Below are positions 35,953-45,023 of a stretch of 64,000 bases of DNA, piece after piece. Origin of the DNA: Nitrospinaceae bacterium. Lineage in GTDB: Bacteria; Nitrospinota; Nitrospinia; Nitrospinales; VA-1. The notes under the pieces are model-generated. The model was not told the DNA's origin and did no database searches. It was given only the letters and a program-made list of their open reading frames with translations. Position numbers and translations under genes: made by a program. Position 1 is the first letter of the stretch, and the number at the start of each line of letters is the position of its first letter. The stretch covers positions 372,001-436,000 of the forward strand of contig BQJC01000003.1 of assembly GCA_021604505.1 (NCBI GenBank). The letters run 5' to 3'.

Positions 35953-37626
35953 ATGGCAGGAGAATATATTTTTACGATGCAGGGGCTTTGCAAAACCTAT
36001 GGTTCCAAAGCCGTCTTTAAAGACATTCATCTTTCGTTTTATCACGGCGCCAAGATCGGCATCGTGGGGGAAAACGGCGCCGGCAAATCCACCCTGCTCG
36101 GGATCATGGCGGGAGAGGATAAGGAATTCGAGGGAAAGGCCCAGCCTTTAAAAGGCACGCGAATCGGCTACCTGCCCCAGGAACCGGTATTGAACCGGGA
36201 AAGAACCGTGCGCGAAAACGTGGAAGAAGCGTTTGCTCATATTCAGACTCTGATTCAGGAGTTCAACGACATAAGCGCCCGACTGGCCGAACCGATGGAC
36301 GATGACGACATGCAAAAAGCCCTCGATAAAATGGGCCGCCTGCAGGACGAAATTGACGCCGTGGACGGCTGGGAGCTGGACCGGCAGGTCAATATCGCCA
36401 TGGACGCGCTGGTTCTTCCCGCTGACGACCAAAAAGCCGAAACCTTATCCGGCGGCGAGGCCCGGCGGGTCGCGCTCTGTAAATTGCTTCTCCAAAAACC
36501 GGACATGATTTTGCTCGATGAACCCACCAACCATCTGGACGCCGAAACCGTCCAATGGCTGGAAGAAACACTGGCCAATTACCCCGGCAACGTGATCGTC
36601 TCCACCCACGACCGTTATTTTCTCGACAACATCACCAAATGGATTCTTGAACTCGATCACGGCAAAGGCATTCCCTTTGAAGGGAACTATACCTCCTGGC
36701 TGGAACAAAAGGCCGCGCGGATTAAGCATCAGGAAAAAAACGCATCCAATCTGCACAAACGCCTGCAAAAGGAACTGGACTGGCTGCACACCACACCCGG
36801 CGCACGCAGAAAATTAAACAAAGCGCGCGTTCAGAATTACGAAAGCCTGGCTTCCAAGAAACTGGATGTTCAGGAAAATTCCCTGGAAATTCAAATCGCT
36901 CCCGGCCCGCCGTTGGGCGAAAAAGTCATCGAGGTTGCCGGCGTGACCAAAGGGTTTGGCGACAACCTTCTGATTGACGATCTTTCCCTGTCGATCCCAA
37001 GAGGCGCCATCGTCGGCCTGATCGGGCCCAACGGAACCGGGAAGACCACGCTGTTTCGCATGATCGTCGGCGAAGACCAGGCCGATAAGGGAACCGTGGA
37101 ACTTGGGCCGACGGTGAAGTTATCCTACGTCGACCAGCACCGCCACGAACTGGAAGCGGGCAAAACCGTCTTTGAGGAAATCACCGACGGCACCGACCAC
37201 ATAGAAATCTCGGGAAAAACGATCAACTCCCGGTCCTATGTGGGCCGCTTTAATTTCAAGGGGACGGACCAGCAGAAAAAAGTCGCCGATTTGTCCGGAG
37301 GCGAACGCAACCGCGTGCATCTTGCCAAACTGCTGCGCCGCGGAGGAAACGTTCTCCTGCTCGACGAACCCACCAACGATCTGGACGTCACCACTCTCAG
37401 CAATCTGGAAAACGCTATTTTGGATTTCAATGGCTGTGTCCTGGTGATCAGCCATGACCGCTGTTTTCTCGACCGCATCTGCACGCATCTTCTGGTGTTT
37501 GAGGGCAACAGCCAAGTGCGCTGGTTCGAGGGAAATTTCGATGAATATTTGGAGAAACACAAACAGGAACTGGGAGGAAAAGAAGAGAACCGCCGGTCAA
37601 AATACAAAAAACTAACGATTCATTGA
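35953..37626 (+). CDS. ettA: Energy-dependent translational throttle protein EttA (ABC-F)
   Basis: 557 aa. Two ABC ATPase domains in one chain without membrane segments. Walker A motifs are GIVGENGAGKSTLLG and GLIGPNGTGKTTLFR; signature motifs are TLSGGEARRVALCKLLL and DLSGGERNRVHLAKLL; Walker B/Glu are LLDEPTNHLD and LLDEPTNDLD. The EttA-type arm and linker are present. EttA gates the first translation cycle at the ribosomal E site according to ATP level. AAGAGGAC precedes the ATG. Confidence 0.94.
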   Translation: MAGEYIFTMQGLCKTYGSKAVFKDIHLSFYHGAKIGIVGENGAGKSTLLGIMAGEDKEFEGKAQPLKGTRIGYLPQEPVLNRERTVRENVEEAFAHIQTLIQEFNDISARLAEPMDDDDMQKALDKMGRLQDEIDAVDGWELDRQVNIAMDALVLPADDQKAETLSGGEARRVALCKLLLQKPDMILLDEPTNHLDAETVQWLEETLANYPGNVIVSTHDRYFLDNITKWILELDHGKGIPFEGNYTSWLEQKAARIKHQEKNASNLHKRLQKELDWLHTTPGARRKLNKARVQNYESLASKKLDVQENSLEIQIAPGPPLGEKVIEVAGVTKGFGDNLLIDDLSLSIPRGAIVGLIGPNGTGKTTLFRMIVGEDQADKGTVELGPTVKLSYVDQHRHELEAGKTVFEEITDGTDHIEISGKTINSRSYVGRFNFKGTDQQKKVADLSGGERNRVHLAKLLRRGGNVLLLDEPTNDLDVTTLSNLENAILDFNGCVLVISHDRCFLDRICTHLLVFEGNSQVRWFEGNFDEYLEKHKQELGGKEENRRSKYKKLTIH

Positions 37627-37667: not shown

Positions 37668-38159
37668 CTAATTGGCAAACTGACGGATGTAGTGAATCAC
37701 CTGCCAGACCGATTCTTCAGAAAGATCACTGAACGCTGGCATGGCAGTGTTTGGAGACCCGTTTTTGATGACCCAGAACAATTGACCGTCGGGAATCGCT
37801 TCCATCATTTCCGAACAGGTGAAATTCCTCGCCGCAGGCTTACTTTCAAAATCCGGATCTCCTTTGGAGTCGCCCTTGACCCCATGACAAAATTGGCACG
37901 CAATGGGAGTGGCTTTCTTCAAAAAAATTTGCTCTCCCGCCTTAATGTTTTCCGGCGTTCCCGGTAAGGGGTTGACGCGGGAGTATTCCTTAACGGGAGC
38001 TTTAGGAGTCTTTCTTTTTTGCGGACAAGCGGAGGAAACATCCACGGCTTGCACGGTATCTGCCGAAACCGTTCCTGTAATCAACGAATGAAAAGCAAAA
38101 GGACAAACTACGGACAAGAGAAAAAAATTCTTTATCAGCCTGGATATGCCTTTCTTCAT
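37668..38159 (-). CDS. Type-A single-haem cytochrome c with extra Cys pair (copy 1)
   Basis: 163 aa from ATG 38159 (GGAGGG ribosome site; ATG 38192 is upstream). A Sec signal peptide leads to a small class I cytochrome c domain. The haem motif is CQFCHG, and the probable distal Met ligand is in NTAMPAFSDL. Like four other proteins here it has a Cys before the haem motif (SACPQKRKTPKAP) and one after it (ARNFTCSEMM), likely a disulfide. It is the last gene of the cytochrome block, 253 bp from the next, so probably has its own promoter. It should be a periplasmic electron carrier. Confidence 0.85.
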   Translation of the reverse strand: MKKGISRLIKNFFLLSVVCPFAFHSLITGTVSADTVQAVDVSSACPQKRKTPKAPVKEYSRVNPLPGTPENIKAGEQIFLKKATPIACQFCHGVKGDSKGDPDFESKPAARNFTCSEMMEAIPDGQLFWVIKNGSPNTAMPAFSDLSEESVWQVIHYIRQFAN

Positions 38160-38412
38160 TAAAACCCTCCGGTATTTTCGAAAAGTCATCAATTCACAAT
38201 AATTTCCATTTTAAAGTAGAATATTCCAAATTATATTATCCTGCAAATCCTTGAAAGCCATCATCAAAACCCCTCCATAAAACGAATACCCCTAACAGGA
38301 AAATGCGCGTCGGCTTTAGATCAAAAAAAGCATTTAAAGTCAATAGGTTAACAACGCCCCTTCAAAAAAGCAAAGATCTCCAAATTCATTATTGGCCTCA
38401 AAATACAATTTT

Positions 38413-38865
38413 CTACTTCCCAAACGATCGGACGTACAAAATGACATGCCAGGCTTCCTCCTCACTAAATACGCGCGGAATAAACGAAGCCATCGCCGTC
38501 CCGGAACTTCCATTTTTCAAAATCCACAACAATTCTCCATCGGTCCGCGCCGCTTGCCAGGATTTATCGGTAAAGTTTCGCGGCAGTTTGCCTCGCAGTC
38601 CCTCAATACCGACGAGTCCTCGACCGTCTTTGCCATGGCAGGTGACACAGAACCCCTTACCGTGAAAAATATCCCGGCCCTTCGCAATATTTTCCCCAGT
38701 GGGAGAAAATGGATTCTTCCATGTTCTTGCTTCTTCCATCTGATCCTGGGGAACGCGGGGTTGTATAACCTCAGGATCGGAAGCTCCACTCAAATCCGTC
38801 AACAACAGACAAATGGTGAAACCCATGAAAATTTGCCAACAAAATTTTAAGCCCAACTTTGACAT
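38413..38865 (-). CDS. Type-B single-haem cytochrome c (copy 1)
   Basis: 150 aa with a signal peptide or anchor (about 1-27). The haem motif is CVTCHGKDG, and the likely Met ligand lies in GTAMASFIPRVFSEEE. It lacks the two extra cysteines of the type-A family but shares its own signature, PRNFTDKSWQAARTDGELLW, with the cytochrome at 43281-43715. The Cys of the FTC motif is replaced by Asp (FTD). A periplasmic electron-transfer role is inferred. Confidence 0.84.
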   Translation of the reverse strand: MSKLGLKFCWQIFMGFTICLLLTDLSGASDPEVIQPRVPQDQMEEARTWKNPFSPTGENIAKGRDIFHGKGFCVTCHGKDGRGLVGIEGLRGKLPRNFTDKSWQAARTDGELLWILKNGSSGTAMASFIPRVFSEEEAWHVILYVRSFGK

Positions 38866-38880
38866 GGTGCCCCTCCAGGC

Positions 38881-38910
38881 AAAATAAAGGGAGGCACATG
38901 CCTCCCTTTA
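38881..38910 (-). terminator. Intrinsic terminator after the DUF1264 gene
   Basis: A perfect 10-bp stem joins AAAGGGAGGC (38886-38895) and GCCTCCCTTT (38900-38909) around a 4-nt loop. On the minus strand it is followed by TTTATTTT. It ends the DUF1264 transcript. Confidence 0.8.
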
Positions 38911-38920
38911 AGAGTGTTGG

Positions 38921-39430
38921 TTATTCAGACTGTGGAAAGGAGTGCCCCAGGGATTGCGGAAAGGTCACCGTTCCATCGGGGAACTTCTGACCCTTCTGCC
39001 AAAGGTGGTAAATCACCCCGTCTGTTTTAGCGGCGGCTTCAGCGATGGCTTTCGCTTCATCCGCTGGCACATCCAAAACCTGAACGCGACCCGTAGCGAT
39101 CTCAACCTGATGATCGTGAAAATACCTGTGCCACCGGATTCTGGGAAGCGTCCGGGCAAGATCCTTGGCCACAAAATACTCGATCGCCATTAAGGGAGCT
39201 TTCGGATCGGTTGTCTCAAATAACAGACATTGCAAAATCTGGTCGGATATTCCCTTACAGTAGTGATGGAAGGGTCCACCCACGGTCCCGTCATCCATCA
39301 TATGAGGTGCCTGGACATGGATATCATAACCATCCGCAGGTCCCGCACTCATCGCCGGAGTCGCCAGCAACCCCAACGACAGAAAGCTCATCACGCTCAT
39401 CATTAAAATGGATTTGATTGATTTTGGCAT
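38921..39430 (-). CDS. Exported DUF1264 (OBAP-family) protein
   Basis: 169 aa from ATG 39430 (AAGGAGGG ribosome site). A signal peptide (about 1-28, ending PAMSAG) is followed by a DUF1264 domain with the family landmarks FHHYCKGISDQILQCLLFE, MAIEYFVAKDLARTLP and RIRWHRYFHDHQVEIATGRV. Plant relatives are oil-body-associated proteins; bacterial function is unknown. The conserved His and Cys residues could bind a metal. It is a single-gene unit inside the cytochrome cluster with its own terminator. Confidence 0.82.
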   Translation of the reverse strand: MPKSIKSILMMSVMSFLSLGLLATPAMSAGPADGYDIHVQAPHMMDDGTVGGPFHHYCKGISDQILQCLLFETTDPKAPLMAIEYFVAKDLARTLPRIRWHRYFHDHQVEIATGRVQVLDVPADEAKAIAEAAAKTDGVIYHLWQKGQKFPDGTVTFPQSLGHSFPQSE

Positions 39431-39875
39431 CGTGCCCTCCTTGTGAAAAATTAAATGATTAAAATACATAAGGGTCTTTTTCCCGGACGATATGGCCAAC
39501 CCATAAAAACCCCTATCTTTTTACTGGCCATTATTTACTACCTTTCTTAATAAAATCTATTTGGTAATTATTAACCATACGGGAGTTTAAAAAAATCCCA
39601 GGAAAGGCTATTACAAGTTAGTGGATTGTTGAATCGATTGTAGGGGAATTACTACAAGGTCAAATGAGCTTTGAAGGGAGGGGGGATCAGTGAAAAATCA
39701 ATGAGTGGCTTTCCCCTCCCGGAGAGGGAGGGGTTGATGCCAAAAACCATTCCATGTGTGGAATTTCCTCAATTTTCCTGACGATCGTTTCACCAACGAG
39801 CGAAGATAACGGACGCAATGCCCTGCTTATTTGTCTGTTAGGTGGGTTCCGTCAATTCACCAAAATTAAGAAAAT
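39431..39875. other. 445-bp intergenic stretch in the cytochrome block
   Basis: It should hold the promoter of the DUF1264 gene on the minus strand. A REP-like hairpin lies at 39713-39733. The 39740-39860 part has no supported gene; a plus-strand frame beginning at 39754 runs into the antisense of the peroxidase gene and looks spurious. Confidence 0.45.
39713..39733. repeat. REP-like GC-rich hairpin
   Basis: CCCCTCCC (39713-39720) pairs with GGGAGGGG (39726-39733) around a 5-nt loop. It is similar in composition to the hairpins near 19842 and 63472 and lies downstream of the peroxidase gene. Confidence 0.4.
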
Positions 39876-40901
39876 TTATTCATGTGAGGGTGGAAGTTCC
39901 GGAATTGCAACAATAATGGGCTCACCTTCCAACGCCTTCATGAATTCCACAAGATCCTTTTTCTCTTTTTTGTTCAATCCTAACGGGGTGATGAAGGGAC
40001 TGCGGTTTTCTTCCACATCACCGCCACGGTCGTAGAAATCAACCACTTCTTCCAACGTTGCTTCACTGCCATCGTGCATGTATGGGGCGCTGCGATTGAT
40101 ATGCCTGAGCCCTGGGGTTTTAAAAGCGCCCTTGTCGAAATCTTCTTTGGTAATCATATAGCGGCCAAAATCCTCCTTTAAGGGACCGTGCTGTTTGACT
40201 CCGATATTATGAAACTTGCTGTCCGTGAAAGCCGGTCCGTTATGACAGATGGAACATTTCGCCTTGCCAAAAAACAGCTTCATGCCGTTTAGAGCCGACG
40301 CTGACATCGCCGATTTATCCCCGGCAAAGTATTTATCATAAGGGGCATTATTTGAAACCACCGAGCGCTCGTAGGTCGCAAGGGCTTTAGCTATCGTCGT
40401 CTTTTTAATCCCTTCTTTGGGGAACACTTTCTTGAACTTTCGGACATATCCTGGGATAGCCTTAAGCTCCTTAACCAGTTCGTCAAGATCCTGTTTCATT
40501 TCAACCTGGGATTCAATAGGCCCTAAAGCCTGTTCCTCAAGAGTTTTGGCGCGGCCATCCCAGAACTGAGTTTCAAAATAACCGCTGTTGATGATCGTGG
40601 GGGAATGCCGGTCCAGTTCCTTATGACCATGACCAAATGCCCGGGGCAACCCGTCGCCCCACCCCAGTCCCGGATGGTGACAGGTCATGCAACTGATCCA
40701 GTTGCTCCCGGATAAACGCAAATCGAAGTACAGCATTGCGCCAAGTTCTTCCTTTTCCTTGGACCAGGGATTGTCTGCGGGATGTTTCATTTTCGGCAAC
40801 GGTTCATAAAATCCCTTCAGGTCTTCAAATTCACCGGCTTCAAGATTCATTGAAAAAGAGATAAGGAATACCGTGATGAAGATTGTCTTGATTGTATTCA
40901 T
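39876..40901 (-). CDS. Dihaem cytochrome c peroxidase (CCP/MauG family)
   Basis: 341 aa. A signal peptide (about 1-22) precedes two cytochrome c domains with haem motifs CMTCHHPGLGWGD (about residue 71) and CSICHNGPAFTD (about 217). Landmarks of bacterial cytochrome c peroxidases are seen, including FWDGRAKTLEEQALGPI and FKTPGLRHINRSAPYMHDG. The enzyme reduces hydrogen peroxide in the periplasm with electrons from small cytochromes c, which fits its position 22 bp after a cytochrome gene. MauG-like oxidation of a protein is the alternative. Confidence 0.9.
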   Translation of the reverse strand: MNTIKTIFITVFLISFSMNLEAGEFEDLKGFYEPLPKMKHPADNPWSKEKEELGAMLYFDLRLSGSNWISCMTCHHPGLGWGDGLPRAFGHGHKELDRHSPTIINSGYFETQFWDGRAKTLEEQALGPIESQVEMKQDLDELVKELKAIPGYVRKFKKVFPKEGIKKTTIAKALATYERSVVSNNAPYDKYFAGDKSAMSASALNGMKLFFGKAKCSICHNGPAFTDSKFHNIGVKQHGPLKEDFGRYMITKEDFDKGAFKTPGLRHINRSAPYMHDGSEATLEEVVDFYDRGGDVEENRSPFITPLGLNKKEKKDLVEFMKALEGEPIIVAIPELPPSHE

Positions 40902-40923
40902 GGATTTATCCTTTGTTAAGCGA

Positions 40924-41388
40924 TCATTTTGCCAATAAACGCAGATAATGGACTATTTGCCAAACCTGTTCGTCTTTTAATCCTTTAAAAGCCATCATTC
41001 CCGTTCCGGAGGAACCGTTTTTGATGATCCAAAAAAGTTGACCGTCTGCCAAATCCTTCATCATTTGAGAACAGGTAAAATCTCTCGGTTTGGGATTCAT
41101 TGCGCTTCCCATGACACCTTTGCCATCTCCCTGCGGTCCGTGGCATTGCGCACAGGCAAGAGGCTTGGCATCTTTCTGATAAAGCAATTCGCCCACGCTG
41201 ATATTTTCAGGTGTGGGTGGAAGGGGATTTGCCTGGTTATATATATTGGCCGGCGCCTGCTGTGTTTTCCTGGGCTGGGAGCAATCTCCAGCAAACGCAG
41301 AGGTATGCATGGACCCAGTTCCTATTGCGGAAAGTAGCATTAAAAACCAAAAGCGGAAGCTCACTGGGAAATCTTTTCTGATTGCCAT
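40924..41388 (-). CDS. Type-A single-haem cytochrome c with extra Cys pair (copy 2)
   Basis: 154 aa with a Sec signal peptide (about 1-33, ending AFAG). The haem motif is CAQCHGPQGDGKG and the Met ligand region is GTGMMAFKGL. The extra cysteines are in GDCSQPRKTQQAP and RDFTCSQMM. An AAAGG ribosome site precedes the ATG. It lies 22 bp upstream of the peroxidase gene, making it the most likely direct electron donor to that enzyme. Confidence 0.86.
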   Translation of the reverse strand: MAIRKDFPVSFRFWFLMLLSAIGTGSMHTSAFAGDCSQPRKTQQAPANIYNQANPLPPTPENISVGELLYQKDAKPLACAQCHGPQGDGKGVMGSAMNPKPRDFTCSQMMKDLADGQLFWIIKNGSSGTGMMAFKGLKDEQVWQIVHYLRLLAK

Positions 41389-41474
41389 GATGACTTACCT
41401 TTCTCTGAGGGGTTCTGGAAGAAATTATTAAAAAGCAAAACGGTAGGTCTCATCCCGCTCAGGGTAGTTTAACA

Positions 41475-41640
41475 GTTCCCCAGGATAAATGAATTCGCTG
41501 CCAAAACTTCCCGTCTTTTAAATCCGAAAACGCAGGCACACCCGTTCGAAGGAACTCTTTTGGATGAGCCAGAACAACTGCCTGCCGGAAATAGCGCTCA
41601 TGATTCCTTCACATTTTATAAGTGCGGCTAATTTTAATGA
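41475..41640 (-). pseudogene. Decayed type-A cytochrome c relic
   Basis: Read on the minus strand, one frame gives KCEGIMSAISGRQLFWLIQK and another continues TGVPAFSDLKDGKFWQRIH. Together they match the post-haem half of the neighbouring cytochromes (TCAEIM..IPDGQLFWVIQNGS, then MPAFSDL....WQLIHF). A frameshift separates the two halves, the liganding Met is Val, and the haem motif and signal peptide are missing. It fills the gap between two intact copies, so it is a remnant of another tandem duplicate. Confidence 0.7.
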
Positions 41641-41669
41641 TCGAAAGATCCAACGTTACTGCGTATCCA

Positions 41670-42179
41670 CTATTTAGAAAACCGCCGGATAAAATGAATC
41701 AACTGCCATGTTTCAGTTTCACTTAATGTTGACTTATGCATCGGCATCGCCGTCCCTTTCGACCCATTTTGGATGACCCAGAATAACTGGCCGTCCGGTA
41801 TTATATCCATAATTTCAGCACAAGTGAAGTTTCTCGGCGGAGGCTCCAACCCCTTCGCCAGCTTGCCATTGCCGTTGCCGCGAATCCCATGACACAGTCC
41901 GCAAGCGGTCGGCTTGGCGTCTTTGTAGTAAAGCTGTTCGCCCTTTCGAATATTGTCGGAAGATTCCGGCAGGGGATTTTTTTTCGTAAAATATTTTTTC
42001 GGTGCGCGTCGGGTATTTCTCTTCTGCGGGCAAATTCCGGAAGCAATGCGAATATATTTTTCAACCGGACCCTGGGAAAAACTTTCTGCCAAAGTTCCGC
42101 GAAACCCTGCAAAAGTGTTCTCGGGAAGAGAGAGAAAAAATAATCCCAGAAAAAATACTGCAATTCTCTTTCGATGCAC
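41670..42179 (-). CDS. Type-A single-haem cytochrome c with extra Cys pair (copy 3)
   Basis: 169 aa starting at GTG 42179 (GCGGAG ribosome site). A signal peptide (about 1-24, ending TFAGF) is followed by SGICPQKRNTRRAP, the haem motif CGLCHGIRGNGNG, RNFTCAEIM and GTAMPMHKSTL. Both extra cysteines and the Met ligand are present. It lies 28 bp after the next cytochrome gene upstream, in one operon. A periplasmic electron carrier is inferred. Confidence 0.86.
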   Translation of the reverse strand: MHRKRIAVFFLGLFFLSLPENTFAGFRGTLAESFSQGPVEKYIRIASGICPQKRNTRRAPKKYFTKKNPLPESSDNIRKGEQLYYKDAKPTACGLCHGIRGNGNGKLAKGLEPPPRNFTCAEIMDIIPDGQLFWVIQNGSKGTAMPMHKSTLSETETWQLIHFIRRFSK

Positions 42180-42207
42180 AAATCACTCCGCAATCAACCC
42201 ATGCGCT

Positions 42208-42744
42208 TTATCTGGTAAAACTCCTCAAATGGAGGACAATCTGCCAGATCTGTTTCTCATTCAATTCCGGGTACGCGGGCATTCCGGTTCCCGGAGATCC
42301 GTTTCGGATGACCCAGAACAACTGACCGTCGGGGATGTCCTTCATGGTTTCAGCGCAGGTGAAGTTCCGGGGCGGGGGATTCATTCCCGGAGCCATCATC
42401 CCAAATCCATTGCCCTTCACTCCATGACAGATTTTACAGGCCGTGGGCTGGGAATCTATGCGAAACAAAGATTGCCCGGCATCGAGATTTTCTTGCGTGG
42501 GTTCCAGGGGATTTTTTTGGCGATAGATATCTTCTGGCGCCTGAGCCGTCACCCTGAGTTGCGGACAAACCCCCTTTCCTTGAAATCCCATACTATGGGG
42601 ATGCATTCCCGGCCCTTTGCCATGCCGCATCATCATCGGACCCGCAAAAGACGTTTCCACCGCGGTAAACATAAAAAGTAATGCACCAGACACAACAAAG
42701 GATCTTTTTAAAGTGTTCATGAGTCTCAATCCATTTCTCATCAT
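42208..42744 (-). CDS. Type-A single-haem cytochrome c with Met/His-rich insert (copy 4)
   Basis: 178 aa from ATG 42744, chosen because it overlaps the upstream stop (ATGA); ATG 42720 is a later option. After the signal peptide comes a Met/His/Gly-rich stretch, GPMMMRHGKGPGMHPHSMGF, absent from its sisters and suggestive of copper binding. Then follow GVCPQLRVTAQAP, the haem motif CKICHGVKGNGFG, RNFTCAETM and GTGMPAYPEL. It is translationally coupled to the upstream cytochrome. Confidence 0.86.
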   Translation of the reverse strand: MMRNGLRLMNTLKRSFVVSGALLFMFTAVETSFAGPMMMRHGKGPGMHPHSMGFQGKGVCPQLRVTAQAPEDIYRQKNPLEPTQENLDAGQSLFRIDSQPTACKICHGVKGNGFGMMAPGMNPPPRNFTCAETMKDIPDGQLFWVIRNGSPGTGMPAYPELNEKQIWQIVLHLRSFTR

Positions 42745-43253
42745 TTGGTTTTTTTGGAAAATTGTCTGATAAAAAGCACCAGTTGCCAAACCTCTTTATC
42801 ACTCAAATCCCTAAACGCCGGCATTTTAGTGCCTGGCGATCCTTTTTTAATGATCCAGTAGATTTGCCCATCAGGGATTTCGTCCATCGTGTAGTAACAG
42901 GTAAAATTTCTTGGCCTGGGAATCAATTGTTCAAAAATAATGCCCATTCCATCCCCGCCGTATCCATGACACACCTTGCAGGCCGTGGGCCGCGCATCGA
43001 TTTTAAACAACGCCTTGCCCGCTTGTAAATTGTCCGGAGTGGGTTCCAGAGGATTGGTCATCTTATAAAAAGCCTCAGGGGCCTGCGGAGTGTTTCGCTC
43101 TTGCGGACAAATACCGGGCGGTTTTTCCGCAAGGAGATCCATACTTTCAGGTTCTACTGAAAACACTTCGTTTACCAGCGAAACGAGAATTAAAAAAACC
43201 GTTAAAAGAAATGTAAAAACCCTCAACTTTTGTCTTACAACTTTGCGCATCAT
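42741..43253 (-). CDS. Type-A single-haem cytochrome c with extra Cys pair (copy 5)
   Basis: 170 aa. A hydrophobic N-terminal helix (about 10-30) could be a signal peptide or an uncleaved anchor. It carries GICPQERNTPQAP, haem motif CKVCHGYGGDGMG, RNFTCYYTM and GTKMPAFRDL. The C-terminus ends in FIRQFSKKTK. It follows the type-B gene by 27 bp and overlaps the next cytochrome gene. The family features are complete. Confidence 0.86.
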   Translation of the reverse strand: MMRKVVRQKLRVFTFLLTVFLILVSLVNEVFSVEPESMDLLAEKPPGICPQERNTPQAPEAFYKMTNPLEPTPDNLQAGKALFKIDARPTACKVCHGYGGDGMGIIFEQLIPRPRNFTCYYTMDEIPDGQIYWIIKKGSPGTKMPAFRDLSDKEVWQLVLFIRQFSKKTK

Positions 43254-43280
43254 ATTGCACCATTCCTAAAGTAGAAGTAT

Positions 43281-43715
43281 TTAATTCTTCCCCAACGTTC
43301 GAATGAAATGAATCACGTTCCAGCCCTCTTCTTCTGTGATCACTTTCCCGATGCGAATGGGCATTTGTGTTCCAGGGCTTCCATTCCTCAAAACCCACAT
43401 CAGTTCTCCATCGGTGCGCACTTCCTGCCATTGCTTATCTGTAAAATCACGTGGAGAATGTCCGGGAATCTTCGTTCCGGTCCCTTCTTTGTTGTGGCAG
43501 GTCACGCACAGTCCCTTGCCAAAATATATTTTTCTTCCGGCTTCAATTCGCTCAGGGTTTGCCGGATAAGGATTCTCGATTTCCTGGACCTGTTCCAAAA
43601 CCTCCTTGGGAACTCTGGGCTCGTAAACGCTCGCATGAATCGCCAGCGCGTTTTTTAACCCCAGGGGAGCAAGAAGAATCAGTAGGATCCAAATATATTT
43701 GGCCAGTTTTTTCAT
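43281..43715 (-). CDS. Type-B single-haem cytochrome c (copy 2), first gene of the cytochrome operon
   Basis: 144 aa from ATG 43715. A signal peptide (about 1-25, MKKLAKYIWILLILLAPLGL...) is followed by VYEPRVPKEVLEQV, the haem motif CVTCHNKEGTGTK, PRDFTDKQWQEVRTDGELMW and GTQMPIRIGKV. It is the closest relative of the cytochrome at 38413-38865 and shares its FTD variant. It heads the run of genes down to the peroxidase. Confidence 0.85.
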   Translation of the reverse strand: MKKLAKYIWILLILLAPLGLKNALAIHASVYEPRVPKEVLEQVQEIENPYPANPERIEAGRKIYFGKGLCVTCHNKEGTGTKIPGHSPRDFTDKQWQEVRTDGELMWVLRNGSPGTQMPIRIGKVITEEEGWNVIHFIRTLGKN

Positions 43716-43919
43716 ATTATAGAATTTCGCCGTCCGCTTCCAGCGTTTATCCACTCACGACCTGTTTATCGGAGTCATCAAAAGTTAGTCCGGGAATGGC
43801 CCTTCCACTGCCAACCCATCCCTCTTCTTGGAGAATAACCCTATAATAAAATAATAAACCGCCAAAACCCTCTTGACCACCCCCTAAATTTACTAATTTA
43901 GAAGCCTCTGGCATCCTTC

Positions 43920-44155: not shown

Positions 44156-44401
44156 ATGATTGACCTTCATCAACTCTTCACCGTTATTAAGAGGATTATG
44201 GAGGCGTCGGGGGAAATTAAAAAGCGCCATTCAACCCTTTTGAGGTCGCTGATCTGCGATTCGGTTGTGGTGTTTTTACTTCAAGGAGAAGGAAACTGCA
44301 GCGAACAAACCCCTGGCCCGAAAGGCCGGAATTCTATTAAATTTAAAAATTGCGCCGCTGGAAAGGGCCGTCAAAAATTCAGGAAACCGGACCGCGGATG
44401 A
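44156..44401 (+). CDS. Doubtful 81-codon open frame
   Basis: The frame starts at ATG 44156 with a poor AAGG ribosome site and reads MIDLHQLFTVIKRIMEASGE at first, which looks helical. The second half is compositionally odd and runs into the antisense of the DUF1566 gene. It may be chance; it is listed because the interval otherwise holds no gene. Confidence 0.2.
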   Translation: MIDLHQLFTVIKRIMEASGEIKKRHSTLLRSLICDSVVVFLLQGEGNCSEQTPGPKGRNSIKFKNCAAGKGRQKFRKPDRG

Positions 44402-44921
44402 GACGCAGAAAAGCGTCGATGCCGCTGATCTTGTCCTGGAAATGCTCACCGCCTTCATCCTTCCATGAAACGACGACGGCCTTGTTGCTTTTTTCCTTGT
44501 TGGTCCAGGTGCTCCATCCGGCGCCTGCAGGAAACATGCGGTCCATGTAGATCTTATCGCCATCTTTGTCCAGGTTCCGTTTGCGGCGCTCATAAAGAGT
44601 CTGGGCTTCTTCAGGCGTGGGTAGACGCCAGTCGGAATACCCGGCAAAATTTTTGTTGTTCATTCTTTGCACGTAATTTTTTGCGTTGTACCAATTAACC
44701 CATTTACCTTCTCGTTGCCAGTAATCTTCCTTCATCCACATCAATCCCGTTTTACTGTCCAGAATGGTGCCATCTCCAAAGTCCTTGTACCTTTGGTCGA
44801 CAGACTGGGCGACGGGTTTTTTATCTTTCAACCCAACGGCCAAAGCCGACCCAACGCACATCAGAACGATACAAACCATTGCAAGCAACTTGATGATCAG
44901 GACCCTTGAGATAGGTCGCAT
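44379..44921 (-). CDS. Exported DUF1566 (Lcl C-terminal-like) protein
   Basis: 180 aa from ATG 44921 (AAGGAGG ribosome site). A signal peptide (about 1-30, ending GSALAVG) precedes a DUF1566 domain with typical landmarks: DFGDGTILDSKTGLMWMKED, WYNAKNYVQRMN, GYSDWRLPTPEEAQTLY and WSTWTNKE. The fold is C-type-lectin-like and is found in secreted bacterial proteins; its ligand is unknown. Monocistronic by position. Confidence 0.82.
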   Translation of the reverse strand: MRPISRVLIIKLLAMVCIVLMCVGSALAVGLKDKKPVAQSVDQRYKDFGDGTILDSKTGLMWMKEDYWQREGKWVNWYNAKNYVQRMNNKNFAGYSDWRLPTPEEAQTLYERRKRNLDKDGDKIYMDRMFPAGAGWSTWTNKEKSNKAVVVSWKDEGGEHFQDKISGIDAFLRLIRGPVS

Positions 44922-45023
44922 GTCCGCCTCCTTACACACACTTTGACAAAGTTTCCAGATAATGGGTTGGAATAAAATTATTTTACAATATTAACCCCAT
45001 GCGAATCAAATTGGCAAATCGTC

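Follow-up and report, generated by a model that had tools for sequence, protein, structure and literature searches.

A cysteine-pair family of class I cytochromes c found mainly in nitrite-oxidising bacteria

Several described cytochromes come close, in one feature or another, to a family of monohaem cytochromes c represented by five genes in a 64,000-nucleotide stretch (hereafter the window, meaning this whole stretch) of a 3.64 Mb Nitrospinaceae genome (G000:C3:372001-436000). Besides the CxxCH haem motif, the family carries one cysteine ahead of it (Cys1) and one behind it (Cys2). One is cytochrome 579, familiar from the iron respiration of Leptospirillum; like the family, it is a class I monohaem protein with a homologous N-terminal arm (PRVP..NP-like) and an RNFT block. 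Plant and algal cytochrome c6A, compared here from its description, is a class I protein with an extra disulfide whose two cysteines lie in one 12-residue loop insertion (PMC8358224), whereas in the family Cys1 and Cys2 flank the haem motif at a distance of 70 residues from each other. A further monohaem cytochrome tied to nitrite oxidoreductase (NXR) is NXR-T (Kustd1705), the tubule-inducing subunit of the anammox enzyme, but it is described as a four-helix bundle (PMC8387239) and was rejected on a comparison of folds only, the family being modelled as class I. In models of nitrite oxidation in Nitrospina, Nitrospira and Nitrotoga, the carrier from NXR to the oxidase is given only as 'cytochrome c' (PMC3578206, PMC6050957, PMC6606698, PMC10839748), and the exit of electrons from NXR in these organisms is an open step of the nitrogen cycle.

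The five open reading frames (ORFs) that a first-pass annotation of the window had placed at 37668, 40924, 41670, 42208 and 42741 were all recovered there; they lie on the minus strand, so these numbers are 3' ends. The copies are 42-46% identical to the first one, a likeness that, judged by sequence, indicates homology and not chance. In all five, Cys1 stands 43 residues before the first haem cysteine and Cys2 27 residues after it, followed by a methionine. The columns invariant in a five-way alignment (numbered after the copy at 37668) include Cys1 (C56), the CxxCH motif (C99, C102 and H103), Cys2 (C126) and Met151, together with the Q, R, T and AP of the block C-(P/S)-Q-x-R-x-T-x-x-A-P that begins at Cys1, and R-x-F-T-C around Cys2. 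The shared layout that had been proposed for the five genes, from Cys1 block to Met, was thus recovered, with a correction to the second block, which reads R(N/D)FTC and not (R/N)FTC.

The invariance of the two cysteines, also claimed from these five genes, extends well beyond them. Among 282 different relatives collected for a survey, 155 have both cysteines and 122 have neither, so that the pair is nearly all-or-none; in the former group the distance from Cys1 to the haem is 42-45 residues, nearly always 43. Three relatives keep Cys2 alone: the first is truncated by the end of its locus, the second is frameshifted, and the third (L017 2507-2974) represents a true loss of Cys1. Across 101 members sharing less than 80% identity, and as little as about 40%, Cys1, Cys2, CxxCH and Met do not vary, nor do a few structural residues. 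Two short Cys-pair copies elsewhere in the window's own genome (L149:8397-8828 and L150:8926-9357) have a Cys1-to-haem distance of about 40 residues instead of 43.

That no named family bears this signature also held up. No NCBIfam model reaches its cut-off for any of the five window genes, and over the 101 members eight NCBIfam families match weakly (best E 3e-19). The cytochrome 579 model (NF033864) is matched by all 101 members, yet its cut-off is 280 bits and the Cys-pair copies of the window score 36-53. Two paralogues in the array that lack the cysteines have this model as their top NCBIfam match, at 75 and 96 bits. Furthermore, the positions of Cys1 and Cys2 are absent from cytochrome 579: four complete frames lack both (LKPRVP.. 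and RNFTN.. at the corresponding sites), and its two other cysteines lie in the C-terminal tail. Membership in cytochrome 579 was therefore rejected. No description of the Cys-pair signature was found in the open-access literature, subscription papers being outside the search. There is nothing unusual about the fold; what carries no name in the libraries searched, and no description in the open papers retrieved, is the subfamily with its signature and distribution.

Group-wise genome counts cover Nitrospinota, Nitrospirota and Gallionellaceae. All 64 Nitrospinales genomes contain the family, in 1-16 copies (E <= 1e-28), and none of the 13 genomes searched from Nitrospinota outside Nitrospinales does. 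The family is present in 68 of 296 Nitrospirota genomes, 54 of which also have a long NxrA and 14 of which do not; another 20 have NxrA only and 208 have neither, an association (Fisher p 3e-29) that is confounded by clade. In Gallionellaceae it occurs in 15 of 158 genomes, 14 of them Nitrotoga-like, with one weak match (G406) aside; Nitrotoga-like here means a named Nitrotoga/Gallionellales record or 86-100% identity to the copies in such records, which is a judgement from sequence. The window's own genome has NxrA-like N-terminal fragments at two contig ends (G000:C5:54-338 and G000:C3:43-225), which probably means that the nxr operon is duplicated and caused the assembly to break there.

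The family had been expected to be restricted to one clade and to retain both cysteines. It does keep both and is strongly patterned by lineage, but it reaches beyond one clade, and the form that different phyla share is part of a larger protein. Nitrospira, Nitrotoga and, in a single instance (L146 8311-9741), the window's own genome have the Cys-pair domain in this form, as the C-terminal part of a four-CxxCH protein. For comparison, the sequences of 48 such proteins were trimmed to a set length of 464-465 residues, over which their alignment contains few gaps. The Gallionellaceae fusions fall in two places of the tree, one beside Nitrospinaceae and one inside Nitrospira, and a tree that holds them together is rejected (approximately unbiased test, p = 3e-5). 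Thus, the fusion has been exchanged among nitrite oxidisers at least twice, entering Gallionellaceae laterally. Downstream of the four-CxxCH gene, Nitrotoga and Nitrospira also have DsrE-like genes that closely resemble each other (L114:10708-11064 and L111:9645-10001), and these neighbours suggest a transferred cluster.

All seven monohaem cytochromes of the window's array, those with and those without the pair, pass both class I cytochrome c cut-offs (PF00034 and PF13442). A confident AlphaFold2 model from the 101-member alignment (mean predicted local distance difference test score, pLDDT, 92.6), whose first sequence comes from 40927-41301 and in which the two cysteines are residues 7 and 77, has six helices and an arm that is ordered from about residue 11. 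Its Foldseek matches are class I cytochromes, namely the cytochrome c552 of Thioalkalivibrio paradoxus, ActE of alternative complex III and a cytochrome of the anammox Kustc0457/Kustc0458 complex. The first of these (9vr0, 7o9u) is the closest solved fold (template modelling score 0.76 with 9vr0; 23% identity) and has a homologous arm before its first helix, but no cysteine aligned with Cys2. ActE (6lod_E, 6f0k_E; E 4.5e-11) shares the class I domain and likewise lacks Cys2, the match starting after the position of Cys1; genes for alternative complex III were not recognised beside the array, whose neighbours are ABC-F, DUF1264, MauG, Lcl_C and methyltransferase genes. No cysteine at the Cys2 position was found in any solved relative compared residue by residue. 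CxxCH, the invariant Met and the predicted helical fold together place the Cys-pair proteins in class I.

The pair is best explained by a putative Cys1-Cys2 disulfide, a structural staple that would fasten the N-terminal arm onto the core. The two residues are about 70 positions apart, with no CxxC or nearby resolving cysteine, which suits a long-range staple. In the coevolution analysis, in which helix-helix controls appear but which is shallow (only about 56 effective sequences), the pair S8-D74, flanking the two cysteines, ranks 8th and gives a weak hint of their proximity. One alternative, a possibility also considered for cytochrome c6A, is a redox-active disulfide that would act as a switch on the potential of the haem or on the binding of partners. 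This would fit the invariance of the pair across paralogues whose linkers and signal peptides vary, and also the model, in which Cys2 directly precedes a short helix of the haem-to-Met segment; the wide separation without a resolving cysteine speaks against it, no computed result favours redox activity, and we regard it as quite unlikely. More doubtful still is that the cysteines form no disulfide but a metal site, a lipidation site (at Cys1) or an intermolecular crosslink. Cys1 does follow closely behind the signal peptide in some copies (AFAGDCSQ in that at 40924); however, it lies deep inside the chain of the four-CxxCH fusions, where a lipidated N-terminus is impossible, and a lipoprotein anchor was rejected for this reason. 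No invariant cluster of His, Asp or further Cys residues stands beside Cys1, and the presence of two cysteines and no third favours an intramolecular bond. Read as a staple, the family offers a test case for a long-range clamp in a class I cytochrome.

The nitrite-oxidation chain is the most plausible setting for a class I periplasmic cytochrome that often occurs in fusion with other haem domains and that nitrite oxidisers from three phyla have both retained and exchanged. Since the family occurs mainly in such organisms, it is a candidate for the carrier that takes electrons from nitrite oxidation. The account moderately favoured by this evidence is that the proteins are exported periplasmic class I carriers of that chain, whose N-terminal arm would be clamped by a structural disulfide. 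Worded as a mechanism, these monohaem cytochromes, with His and Met as haem ligands, would be exported to the periplasm, the arm would be fastened across the core by the Cys1-Cys2 bond, and both the monohaem copies and the four-CxxCH fusion would link NXR, with the cytochromes that partner it, to the terminal oxidase or to the complexes of reverse electron flow. In Nitrospinales the domain would have multiplied into old, separately conserved paralogues, probably for different partners. A high potential of the cytochromes and their position in the chain are surmised. A wider proposal, put forward tentatively and as somewhat short of probable, is that the Cys-pair domain, fused and stand-alone, serves as a module dedicated to electron transfer in periplasmic nitrite oxidation, was passed among nitrite oxidisers belonging to three phyla, and in Nitrospinales expanded into carriers specific to particular partners.

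The suggested role in nitrite oxidation draws on distribution, and several observations weigh against it. At least four Burkholderiales-type metagenome-assembled genomes carry 1-3 copies and no NxrA of this type, their best molybdoenzyme match being NarG-like in three; strict restriction to nitrite oxidisers was therefore rejected. About 20 Nitrospirota genomes and two Nitrospinota genomes outside Nitrospinales have NxrA-like genes without the family. Gene neighbourhood gives no direct connection to NXR: the arrays are accompanied by ABC-F, Lcl_C, MauG and DUF1264 genes, and nxr does not adjoin the fusion genes among those inspected. Finally, the Cys pair arises once on the tree, one long-branch row aside; with this essentially single origin the all-or-none pattern does not stand for many independent events, and it points to lasting selection, not to many independent co-gains. 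The link of the family to nitrite oxidation is strong, and neither exclusive nor universal. The two Nitrospinota genomes just mentioned (G055 and G059) have long NxrA-like genes and no family member; possibly they are not nitrite oxidisers, or they use another carrier. For the electron-exit step of NXR, a family with a diagnostic Cys signature and a fixed-length, laterally moved four-CxxCH partner provides named targets, and it may also serve as a sequence marker for the electron chains of nitrite oxidisers.

Within the window, the seven monohaem cytochromes, five with the pair and two without (ORF and Pfam analysis), occupy 37668-43754 on the minus strand. The array and its flanks are as follows:

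35953..37626, plus strand: ABC-F type ATPase gene; this flank of the array is conserved in other Nitrospinota
37668..38192, minus strand: Cys-pair cytochrome P1 (CQFCH), with a likely ATG start within a 174-residue frame (MKKGISRL..)
38413..38865, minus strand: cytochrome-579-like monohaem cytochrome lacking the Cys pair (E 1.7e-27 against NF033864, short of the cut-off)
38921..39499, minus strand: DUF1264 protein with a signal-like N-terminus, within the array; syntenic in relatives
39876..40901, minus strand: MauG-like di-haem cytochrome c peroxidase gene, within the array; syntenic in relatives
40924..41388, minus strand: Cys-pair cytochrome P2 (CAQCH), the first sequence of the AlphaFold2 model
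~41455..41660 (approximate ends), minus strand: pseudogene, the frameshifted C-terminal half of a sixth Cys-pair copy (repeat family D2; three-frame translation)
41670..42179, minus strand: Cys-pair cytochrome P3 (CGLCH), from ORF, Pfam and alignment
42208..42789, minus strand: Cys-pair cytochrome P4 (CKICH), its start probably downstream of the TTG (MRNGLRLMNTLKRS..), because the long frame overlaps P5
42741..43253, minus strand: Cys-pair cytochrome P5 (CKVCH), from ORF, Pfam and alignment
43281..43754, minus strand: second cytochrome-579-like monohaem cytochrome without the Cys pair (ORF, NCBIfam)
44379..44939, minus strand: Lcl_C domain protein, the conserved neighbour on the other flank

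The two Cys-less relatives, the DUF1264 and MauG-like genes and the frameshifted remnant add to what the first-pass annotation had reported. It had also called the genes a tandem family, and related copies do stand in a row, but they are not the outcome of recent tandem amplification: each of the five falls in a subclade of its own on the tree, together with orthologues from outside its genus or family, which makes them old paralogues. A block of BASS transporter, methyltransferase, Lcl_C, DUF1264, cytochrome-579-like, MauG, Cys-pair and ABC-F genes is recognisable, with gains and losses, in eight further loci (L048, L054, L056, L065, L070, L071, L075 and L086). The array thus appears to be old, its paralogues presumably kept apart by selection, and the remnant at 41455-41660 indicates that the sixth copy was lost recently enough to stay readable. 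That redox tuning has diverged within the array is a guess.

Because the array encloses a peroxidase gene, the main rival to a place in the nitrite chain is a role related to peroxide: the cytochromes would donate electrons to the MauG-like enzyme, in a unit for peroxide removal or protein oxidation. Small cytochromes c donate electrons to bacterial di-haem peroxidases, and at least six further loci in Nitrospinota (L042, L044, L046, L048, L056 and L070) have a MauG-like gene close to family genes. This role is nevertheless unlikely, since the four-CxxCH form and the solo copies are not beside MauG at most loci, five or more paralogues are excessive for one peroxidase, and L054, L071 and L075 keep the syntenic block with no MauG detected. 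The gene itself scores 268 bits against TTQ_mauG (cut-off 444) and is syntenic in several Nitrospinota.

Two minor observations concern relatives of the family. The two cytochrome-579-like paralogues (38413-38865 and 43281-43754) occur in a presumed nitrite oxidiser. At L148:7993-9741, a protein related to the Cys-pair cytochromes is fused to peptidoglycan-binding and carboxypeptidase-regulatory-like domains, a few genes from a NuoL-like gene.

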